DNA of 25,596 nt, from IMG/VR virus record IMGVR_UViG_3300049212_000028, positions 1 to 25,596 of that record; one strand, 5' to 3'. Positions 8,822 to 10,378 of this stretch are shown piece by piece. The notes beneath the pieces were generated by a model. The model saw only the letters and a list, made by a program, of their open reading frames with translations. It ran no database searches and was not told the origin of the DNA. The DNA is from a virus. The translations under genes were made by a program, and so were the position numbers. Position 1 is the stretch's first letter; every line of letters starts with the position of its first letter.

Positions 8822-8851
8822 ACTATAGGCTCACCTTATGATTGTGGTCAA
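8822..8851 (-). promoter_or_regulatory. Leftward early promoter (PL-like)
   Basis: On the minus strand, -35 TTGACC (8846-8851) and -10 TATAGT (8822-8827) are separated by 18 nt (17 with CTATAG as the -10). The -10 overlaps one 15-bp operator and the -35 touches the second, so repressor binding would block polymerase. The first A of the ATG at 8815 is 7 nt past the -10, where transcription normally begins. Confidence 0.7.
8825..8839. promoter_or_regulatory. Left operator 1
   Basis: ATAGGCTCACCTTAT on the plus strand is the exact reverse complement of the right operator ATAAGGTGAGCCTAT at 10115-10129, 1.3 kb away. The site is an imperfect palindrome and covers the -10 of the leftward promoter. 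Confidence 0.8.
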
Positions 8852-8865
8852 TAGGGTAAACTTAT
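8851..8865. promoter_or_regulatory. Left operator 2
   Basis: ATAGGGTAAACTTAT (reverse complement ATAAGTTTACCCTAT) keeps the outer ATA..TAT arms and the C of CCTAT found in the other three sites. It starts 26 bp from the first left operator and borders the promoter -35. Confidence 0.65.
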
Positions 8866-8922: not shown

Positions 8923-9372
8923 ATGTCGATTTCGGGCAAGCCGTCTACGTTCTGCGGCTCGGATGTTGAGTACACCCGCCCAAACCATATGAGGCAACAG
9001 ATGGGAAGCGCCGATCCGCCAAACGATCCAGTAGTCGACCCTAGTCCGGAGATGATTTCTGCTGGCGTGGTTGCGCTTGAGGACTGGCGGGAAGTGGCCT
9101 TCGACGAGATGGTTGTTGCTGAAATTTATAAAGCCATGGTCTCTGCGTCGCCGCCAGCATTTCACGATGGATCTGAGTCACAAGTGCTTATAACTGGGGC
9201 AGGGAACAGCCTCAGTGTAGAACTGAGCCCGAGTTTTTCTCGCCCCGGATTGCCGAGAATGTCTCCTCTACGACGCCTTTTAGCGCGTCTCCTGCTTGGT
9301 ACATGGTGGCGAGAAGTTGAAGCGCATTTTTTGCAGGCCCCTCGAACTGGAAGCGGCACTGAACAAAGTTGA
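8923..9372 (+). CDS. Plus-strand gene next to the left operators, 149 aa
   Basis: ATG at 8923 with GGAG 6 nt upstream. Residues about 43-75 (EMISAGVVALEDWREVAFDE then VAEIYKAMVSA) match a recurring small phage-protein motif, 'M(I/V)xAGxxAL...xxIYxAM'. After about residue 97 the frame is antisense to the end of the 9212-9502 gene and reads less like protein. Transcription would run opposite to the leftward operon from the operator region, so it could be repressor-controlled. Function unknown. Confidence 0.65.
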   Translation: MSISGKPSTFCGSDVEYTRPNHMRQQMGSADPPNDPVVDPSPEMISAGVVALEDWREVAFDEMVVAEIYKAMVSASPPAFHDGSESQVLITGAGNSLSVELSPSFSRPGLPRMSPLRRLLARLLLGTWWREVEAHFLQAPRTGSGTEQS

Positions 9373-9502
9373 GCGATCCAGAAAGATGGACCGGCATCGT
9401 ACCGTCGTATCTGAGAATGCAGTCAGTGAACTCGCAGTCGATGAACGTGCAACCGTCCATCTGAATGGTCATTTTTTCGAACTTTGTTTTTCGTGAGATC
9501 AC
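9212..9502 (-). CDS. Pentapeptide-like beta-repeat protein in rex position
   Basis: 96 residues, GTG at 9502 with AGGGAG upstream at good spacing. The N-terminal half (MDGCTFIDCEFTDCILRYDG, later LNFVQCRFQFEG) has the alternating F/C pattern of pentapeptide-like right-handed beta-helices; the C-terminal half (ALQLLATMYQAGDALKGVVE) is helical. It is the last gene of the repressor transcription unit. By position it could be expressed in the lysogen, as rexA/rexB are in lambda. Its 3' end overlaps the convergent plus-strand gene by 161 nt. Confidence 0.75.
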   Translation of the reverse strand: MISRKTKFEKMTIQMDGCTFIDCEFTDCILRYDGTMPVHLSGSLNFVQCRFQFEGPAKNALQLLATMYQAGDALKGVVEETFSAIRGEKNSGSVLH

Positions 9503-9534
9503 GAGGGGGCTCCCTTTCGTTGTGGTTGTGATCC

Positions 9535-9726
9535 CTAGCTGCTCTTCCAGGCAAGATAGAGAAGCAGCGCGACAGCAATCCAGAGCGCACGCTTTAGGTC
9601 ATCGACTACCTCGCGTAAAGCTGCCAGCTCGGATCGAAATTGCCCTATGGTGTCTTTGATTTCCTCGACTTCGTCAGGCAGTGACCACGGCTCGGCGAAC
9701 GCGTCTTCCCAGTCGTCCGTAGCCAT
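9535..9726 (-). CDS. Small coiled-coil protein with C-terminal membrane anchor
   Basis: 63 residues, ATG 9726, 7 nt after the repressor stop. An acidic N-terminus (MATDDWEDAFAEPWSLPDEV) is followed by a heptad-like helix (EIKDTIGQFRSELAALREVV) and a terminal hydrophobic segment (LWIAVALLLYLAW, residues 48-60). The topology predicts a tail-anchored inner-membrane protein with a cytoplasmic coiled coil. Co-transcription with the repressor and the membrane location suggest superinfection exclusion, by analogy only. Confidence 0.78.
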   Translation of the reverse strand: MATDDWEDAFAEPWSLPDEVEEIKDTIGQFRSELAALREVVDDLKRALWIAVALLLYLAWKSS

Positions 9727-9733
9727 AGCGGCT

Positions 9734-10090
9734 CTACTGTTTGGTGTTCTCGGTCTTGACGAAATCCGCGTATCTGGCGATTTGGCGCCGGAGTTCAGGA
9801 TCAAGCTCGCCCCATCTCTGGAGGAATGGCTCGGTCTCGGGCGTAGCAGCGGGGTGCTTCGGACCGCGCTCTGTGTAGAGCCATTCGACGCACACATTTA
9901 ATTCCTTTGCCAGCTTGAGCACAGATGGATGTTCGGGTGCGCGATTGGGCAGCCCCCACTCATGGACGGCCGGCTGGCTCACTCCGGCCATTTTCGCAAG
10001 CCGGGTTTGGGTCGCCCGCTCTTTGGGATGGCGCTCCTTCAGCGCCTCTAAGGCTCGTTCCAGAAAGGTTCTTTCGCGCGTTTTGGCCAT
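9734..10090 (-). CDS. Short CI-like prophage repressor (XRE-type HTH)
   Basis: 118 residues, start ATG 10090. An XRE helix-turn-helix lies at about residues 27-65 (TRLAKMAGVSQPAVHEW, then HPSVLKLAKELNVCVEWLYT), with the VxxEWLYTxRGPK ending usual in CI-type repressors. The C-terminus (FLQRWGELDPELRRQIARYA) is one short helix. There is no LexA/S24 autoprotease domain, so RecA-driven self-cleavage is not expected. Divergent from the Cro-like gene across two operators. No ribosome binding site is seen. Confidence 0.85.
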   Translation of the reverse strand: MAKTRERTFLERALEALKERHPKERATQTRLAKMAGVSQPAVHEWGLPNRAPEHPSVLKLAKELNVCVEWLYTERGPKHPAATPETEPFLQRWGELDPELRRQIARYADFVKTENTKQ

Positions 10091-10114: not shown

Positions 10115-10129
10115 ATAAGGTGAGCCTAT
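10115..10129. promoter_or_regulatory. Right operator 1
   Basis: ATAAGGTGAGCCTAT, identical in inverted orientation to the left operator at 8825-8839. It lies between the repressor start and the rightward promoter -35. Confidence 0.8.
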
Positions 10130-10156
10130 TGCATAATCATAAGGCAATCCTATACT
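10129..10156 (+). promoter_or_regulatory. Rightward early promoter (PR-like)
   Basis: -10 TATACT (10151-10156) with a weak -35 TTGCAT (10129-10134), 16-nt spacer. The -10 overlaps operator 10139-10153. The Cro-like ATG begins 10 nt after the -10, so the transcript would have almost no leader. Confidence 0.65.
10139..10153. promoter_or_regulatory. Right operator 2
   Basis: ATAAGGCAATCCTAT shares ATAAGG and CCTAT with the operator 24 bp upstream. It covers the start of the rightward -10, suiting repression of that promoter. Confidence 0.75.
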
Positions 10157-10165
10157 CTTCGTGCT

Positions 10166-10378
10166 ATGCAAGCGTTGCGCTCCTACCTGGACAGGACGAA
10201 TACGACCCAGTCGGCATTCGCGAAACGAGTTGGCGTGAGTCAGGCGACGGTGGCGAACTGGGTGAACGGGGTTCACTCGGCCTCTGCCGAGCAGCTGAGA
10301 AACATCGCGCGTGAGGCAGGTTGCAGCGTTGACGAACTGTTGGCTGACAGCGCATCCGAGCGCCCGAACGTAGCCTAG
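10166..10378 (+). CDS. Cro-like XRE-family DNA-binding protein
   Basis: 70 residues, ATG 10166. Nearly the whole protein is an XRE helix-turn-helix: MQALRSYLDRTNTTQSAFAK, then RVGVSQATVANWVNGVHSAS and AEQLRNIAREAGCSVDELLA. It is first in the rightward operon and divergent from the CI-like repressor, the position of lambda cro, so it probably binds the same operators and favours lytic growth. No ribosome binding site is present upstream; translation is probably from a leaderless message. Confidence 0.88.
   Translation: MQALRSYLDRTNTTQSAFAKRVGVSQATVANWVNGVHSASAEQLRNIAREAGCSVDELLADSASERPNVA

Follow-up and report, generated by a model that had tools for sequence, protein, structure and literature searches.

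Two short genes lie directly behind the CI-like repressor gene of a virus record and on the same strand, which raises the question of what they do there and whether they could guard the lysogen in the manner of lambda rexA and rexB. The window analysed here is an IMG/VR virus record of 25,596 bases, which very probably comes from a temperate tailed phage, as it encodes a tyrosine integrase, an ERF recombinase, a DnaB-like primase-helicase and a terminase. The features of the locus are listed in Table 1.

Table 1. Predicted genes and regulatory elements of the immunity region
Feature	Coordinates	Strand	Evidence
CI-like repressor, 118 aa	9734..10090	-	Phage_CI_repr, DicA/RstR and phage repressor profile matches; 72-73% identical relatives in L039/L040
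63-aa acidic helical protein with predicted C-terminal hydrophobic anchor (residues 47-61)	9535..9726	-	translation, codon score, AlphaFold2
96-aa protein, predicted mini pentapeptide-repeat β-helix (1-54) and C-terminal helical hairpin (55-90), phrog_26297	9212..9502	-	PHROGs profile, AlphaFold2, structure alignment
149-aa ORF, convergent and overlapping with the 96-aa gene	8923..9372	+	strong RBS AGGAGAGG
Cro-like HTH protein, 70 aa, gene divergent from that of the repressor	10166..10378	+	HTH_3, E 8.5e-12; phage repressor families
Right operator ATAAGGTGAGCCTAT, between repressor and cro	10115..10129	+	operator scan
Right operator ATAAGGCAATCCTAT	10139..10153	+	operator scan; conserved in L039, one change in L040
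Left operator ATAAGGTGAGCCTAT, same sequence as right operator 10115	8825..8839	-	operator scan
Left operator ATAAGTTTACCCTAT	8851..8865	-	operator scan; conserved with one change in L039 and L040
PL-like promoter TTGACC-18-TATAGT, overlapping the left operators	8822..8851	-	L039 and L040 share TTGAC and TATAGT

Two accessory genes in the rex position

The CI-like repressor gene is the first gene of a putative PRM transcript. Its ATG (10090) lacks a clear Shine-Dalgarno sequence, as would be the case for a leaderless PRM transcript like the one in lambda. A scan for the 15-base operator gave four matches with at most three mismatches, compared to 0.28 expected by chance, and four matches were reached in no shuffle. 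The operators are arranged as two pairs, one between repressor and cro and the other at the left, on the PL-like promoter region (8822-8865). This promoter, the only sigma-70-like one found in the region, would fire leftwards, like lambda PL. Given the matching operators on both sides and the leftward promoter at the left pair, the 63-aa and 96-aa genes sit between the repressor and the left operator, just as rexA and rexB do in lambda.

Two relatives of the repressor, encoded by the IMG/VR loci L039 and L040 (73% and 72% identity, respectively), are accompanied by the same two-sided operator arrangement. The distance from the repressor stop codon to the left operators is 63 bases in L039 and 45 bases in L040, compared to 868 bases in the window. 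Since the relatives have only 45-63 bases there, the 63-aa gene, the 96-aa gene and the ORF on the opposite strand (8923-9372) are extra in the window. By this comparison the two genes are taken to be accessory cargo of an immunity region of the lambda type, and across the three loci compared a gain in the window would be simpler than a loss in L039 and L040. A search for the operator pattern in viral contigs matched only these two loci, both already known. The more distant relative L041, which has a similar helicase, carries a different gene behind its repressor-like gene, encoding a 242-aa protein. In L039, which lacks the insert, a Dcm-like methyltransferase gene (L039:4646-5434) lies behind the PL-like promoter.

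The preliminary description had placed two frames directly behind the repressor on its strand, and both are indeed open on the minus strand there; its comparison of their place to that of rexAB is strongly supported by the flanking operators and by the relatives without the insert.

The opposite-strand ORF starts just inside the left operators, and its far end is antisense to the 96-aa gene. It has a codon score of 0.05 in the N-terminal part and -0.31 in the overlapping C-terminal part. This ORF is likely a third cargo gene, with a doubtful far end; as the overlapping C-terminal third scores poorly on codons, the true end may be nearer 9200.

Predicted structures of the two proteins

The 63-aa gene starts 7 nt past the repressor stop codon and lacks a strong Shine-Dalgarno sequence, and for these reasons its translation is likely coupled to that of the repressor. 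An alternative start in the same frame, at 9897, would lengthen the gene into that of the repressor. AlphaFold2 modelling without an alignment gave a continuous helix over residues 18-62, with a mean pLDDT of 86. The protein is acidic, and the helix ends in its only hydrophobic stretch, ALWIAVALLLYLAWK (residues 47-61). Among ORFs of comparable length in the compared loci, ~5% end in a hydrophobic stretch of this type, or ~1% when few helix breakers are also required before it, a filter that the 63-aa protein narrowly fails. Such a stretch alone is weak evidence for the gene, to which gene order, spacing and codon score add. The frame has the best codon score among the six frames across its own stretch, and the reality of the gene rests on this score, its position and its features. 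No relatives were found in the Pfam, PHROGs, NCBIfam and PADLOC profiles, in phages and viral contigs, or by phmmer across 11,332 ORFs of the compared loci, which is not proof of novelty.

The 96-aa gene begins with a GTG codon at 9502 behind a good ribosome site, AAAGGGAG, 32 nt past the stop codon of the 63-aa gene, and its frame likewise scores best of the six across its own stretch. The product matches phrog_26297, a PHROGs family without an assigned function, with an E-value of 9.5e-19 (residues 6-88 to profile positions 7-89 of 93), and shares 30-38% identity with phage proteins; judged from these sequence matches, the gene is certainly real. The AlphaFold2 model, built on a seven-sequence alignment (mean pLDDT 89.3), has nine short strands within residues 1-54, followed by two helices within residues 55-90. 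The strands are in register, and the model points to a right-handed four-sided β-helix, as a fold class only. This predicted fold is common to the pentapeptide-repeat proteins MfpA, Qnr and AlbG, from which the 96-aa protein differs in having under three coils plus a helical hairpin, and in scoring below the Pfam cut-offs (18.3 bits for Pentapeptide_3, with a cut-off of 27). Residues 1-54 could be aligned with the MfpA and Qnr structures, for MfpA with a Z-score of 5.8 and an RMSD of 2.1 Å over 52 residues, a level that indicates a shared, common arrangement only.

Structural similarity search using Foldseek against the PDB yielded nothing with an E-value of 0.001 or below, and therefore the fold gives no function for this protein. 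A profile search of PDB sequences returned generic pentapeptide and SV2C-type matches only. In BFVD, two small viral proteins, both unnamed, were good matches. The family also has a weak profile similarity to the Hailong effector HalA (NCBIfam NF051894), at about positions 73-149. Membership was rejected, with 11.1 bits for the 96-aa protein and 24.8 bits for its best relative against a cut-off of 250, and ordinary pentapeptide proteins reach up to 43.9 bits on the same profile, above the 96-aa family. Of 395 Bacteroidota genomes, 203 contain matches to HalA; many of these score better, and they look like ordinary pentapeptide proteins. At the level of sequence, the resemblance is thus one of generic pentapeptide repeat character rather than membership.

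As predictions, the coiled coil with a C-terminal anchor and the β-repeat protein that had been read from the sequence by eye both agree with the models. The label "unrecognised" still applies to their function, but it no longer fits the family of the 96-aa protein.

A recurrent pair among relatives of the 96-aa protein

Elizabethkingia phage EKP1, several IMG/VR contigs, E. coli prophages and Salinibacter-like chromosomes, whose kinship to Salinibacter is read from their proteins, all encode relatives of the 96-aa protein; the family also occurs far from repressors. With phrog_26297, which has a member in EKP1, the 96-aa protein shares its length, repeat pattern and C-terminal region. Two further candidates were rejected: L002, the only match in a single-sequence scan of genome contigs, is an ordinary pentapeptide protein, and L013, a Paracoccus plasmid, gave a partial match only.

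In five separate phage or prophage lineages (EKP1, the E. coli prophages, and the IMG/VR lineages L011/L015/L016, L017 and L018/L019), the relative directly follows the gene of a two-span membrane protein of ~100 aa that matches phrog_26238, and in all of them the two genes overlap in their stop and start codons. The E. coli pair (NZ_CP189514.1, 1940736-1941307) is present in 35 of 5426 complete genomes with at least 99% identity, where it follows the genes of holin and lysozyme and precedes the terminase; in the EKP1-like, E. coli and L011/L017 loci alike, the pair sits between the lysis genes and the terminase, a typical site for morons. Most phrog_26297 members found are located near lysis genes behind a phrog_26238-type protein, whereas the window member lies behind the repressor and a one-span protein. 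This 63-aa protein is unrelated to the two-span protein but takes the same place in the gene order, separated by 32 nt instead of overlapping, and no phrog_26238-type gene was detected in the window. Hence the order "membrane protein gene, then 96-aa-type gene" recurs, with an unrelated membrane partner in the window.

The phrog_26238-type partner is usual among the phrog_26297 members found, not a defining trait of the family. The overlapping upstream gene in L064 looks soluble, and no membrane partner was seen in L012 and the Salinibacter-like genomes. In L064, the 96-aa-family gene (L064:9038-9349) lies directly behind a related primase-helicase and overlaps this 84-aa soluble-looking gene. 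At L018:1687-2787, the pair, consisting of a two-span and a 91-aa protein, is divergent from a Dcm-like DNA methyltransferase gene.

Pseudomonas phages F116 and H66, Rhizobium phage RHEph21 and two plasmids encode fusions in which a longer C-terminal region follows the two-span domain. Fusions are seen at L022:2983-3894, L023:2977-3894, L024:2998-3873 and L025:2983-3807, some with a D...VEVK pattern that could mark a PD-(D/E)xK nuclease; this putative domain has no match among PDB sequences. In E. coli NZ_CP134663 (L026:2977-3747), the two-span domain is joined to the receiver domain of a response regulator, and the fusion is missing from the gene table of the record. Given these varied fusions, the two-span protein is taken to be a membrane module with changeable partners, one of them the 96-aa-type protein. 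PADLOC gave no match to the phrog_26238/26297 pair, and no description of it was found in the literature searched.

A candidate exclusion module and its alternatives

We tentatively propose, by analogy and with a probability somewhat short of even, that the two genes form a membrane-linked superinfection-exclusion module, which would work like RexAB but not be RexAB. From their position and strand, both genes would share the PRM transcript of the repressor in the lysogen. The 63-aa protein would place its C-terminal helix in the inner membrane and its coiled coil in the cytoplasm, and the 96-aa mini pentapeptide-solenoid may bind it as a soluble partner. The latter might sense or relay a signal of infection and the former act as membrane effector or platform, although the direction could be different, and together they would keep other phages from superinfecting the lysogen.

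This reading is favoured because a membrane protein paired with a soluble one beside the repressor is the design of RexAB. Lambda RexAB likewise comprises two genes on the repressor strand between CI repressor and left operator, one with a membrane product and the other with a soluble one, but it has a four-span RexB compared to one span here, and a RexA-type DNA-binding protein compared to a pentapeptide solenoid; the window proteins have 63 and 96 residues. Neither protein matches the RexA/RexB families in Pfam, PHROGs, NCBIfam and PADLOC up to an E-value of 1, and neither matches Pfam exclusion families or PADLOC defence models, in keeping with the preliminary statement that they resemble no known exclusion factor. 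The same membrane-plus-soluble design, without a sequence match, is found in the lysogen-expressed exclusion pairs Sbash gp30/gp31 and CarolAnn gp43/gp44 (PMC7542560), and in the RexAB exclusion pair of P. putida, located behind a CI-like repressor (PMC12894663). Against exclusion stand the lack of matches to exclusion families and defence libraries, the relatives without a membrane partner, the one-span orphan in place of a four-span RexB, and the 32-nt gap in place of overlapping genes.

A broader proposal, which we consider doubtful, is that the 96-aa protein belongs to a class of two-component exclusion systems of prophages that is as yet undescribed and that combines a conserved mini pentapeptide-solenoid with interchangeable small membrane proteins. 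Within this class, the partner would be a phrog_26238-type two-span protein in the Enterobacteria and Elizabethkingia phages, and a one-span tail-anchored helix in the window.

The main rival of the exclusion module is that the pair is a general moron, expressed in the lysogen but serving host fitness or surface and envelope physiology. The varied accessory sites of the 96-aa relatives (following lysis genes or the helicase, close to tail genes, and in Salinibacter-like chromosomes) are consistent with such a role, whereas the rex position and the membrane-plus-soluble design, neither of them specific, favour exclusion; overall we regard it as rather unlikely.

One or both products might instead stabilise lysogeny by modulating the repressor or prophage induction, like Hex of phage 434, a small protein made from the PRM transcript with the repressor that blocks RecA-mediated repressor autocleavage (PMC3564112). 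The window genes match Hex in operon position, but the hex gene overlaps the repressor gene and its product guards the repressor against RecA, whereas the repressor of the window, at 118 aa, appears too short for a LexA-type cleavage domain, which makes a Hex-like role unlikely. As two relatives with nearly the same repressor also do without the genes, we consider this improbable.

Toxin-antitoxin pairs are common in prophages, and a likely operon in which the gene of a small soluble protein comes after that of a small membrane protein would suit one, with an anchored 63-aa protein toxic to the membrane and a neutralising 96-aa protein. The probability of an addiction pair is nevertheless low, given no match to a toxin or antitoxin family in Pfam, PHROGs, NCBIfam and PADLOC, and the pairing of the wider 96-aa family with an unrelated two-span protein.

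A lysis accessory, with the 63-aa protein tuning lysis as an XhlA- or antiholin-like factor, appears more improbable still: the coiled coil with a C-terminal anchor resembles XhlA in outline and 96-aa relatives follow the lysis genes of EKP1 and E. coli, but Pfam gives no XhlA match up to an E-value of 1, and the pair is co-directional with the repressor, away from the late genes. That the 96-aa protein is a Qnr/MfpA-like DNA mimic, binding gyrase or another DNA-binding protein, is very unlikely despite the alignment of its first 54 residues in fold, as it has fewer than three coils, a near-neutral charge (10 K+R, 11 D+E) instead of a long acidic solenoid, and a Z-score of only 5.8, reflecting a common arrangement.

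Genes expressed beside the repressor are among the best places for finding new exclusion systems, and in this immunity region the relatives with and without the insert delimit the cargo sharply. Through the 96-aa family, the cargo of the window is tied to a recurrent, unstudied two-gene module that 35 complete E. coli genomes carry in prophages, an occurrence that makes the module directly testable in laboratory E. coli.
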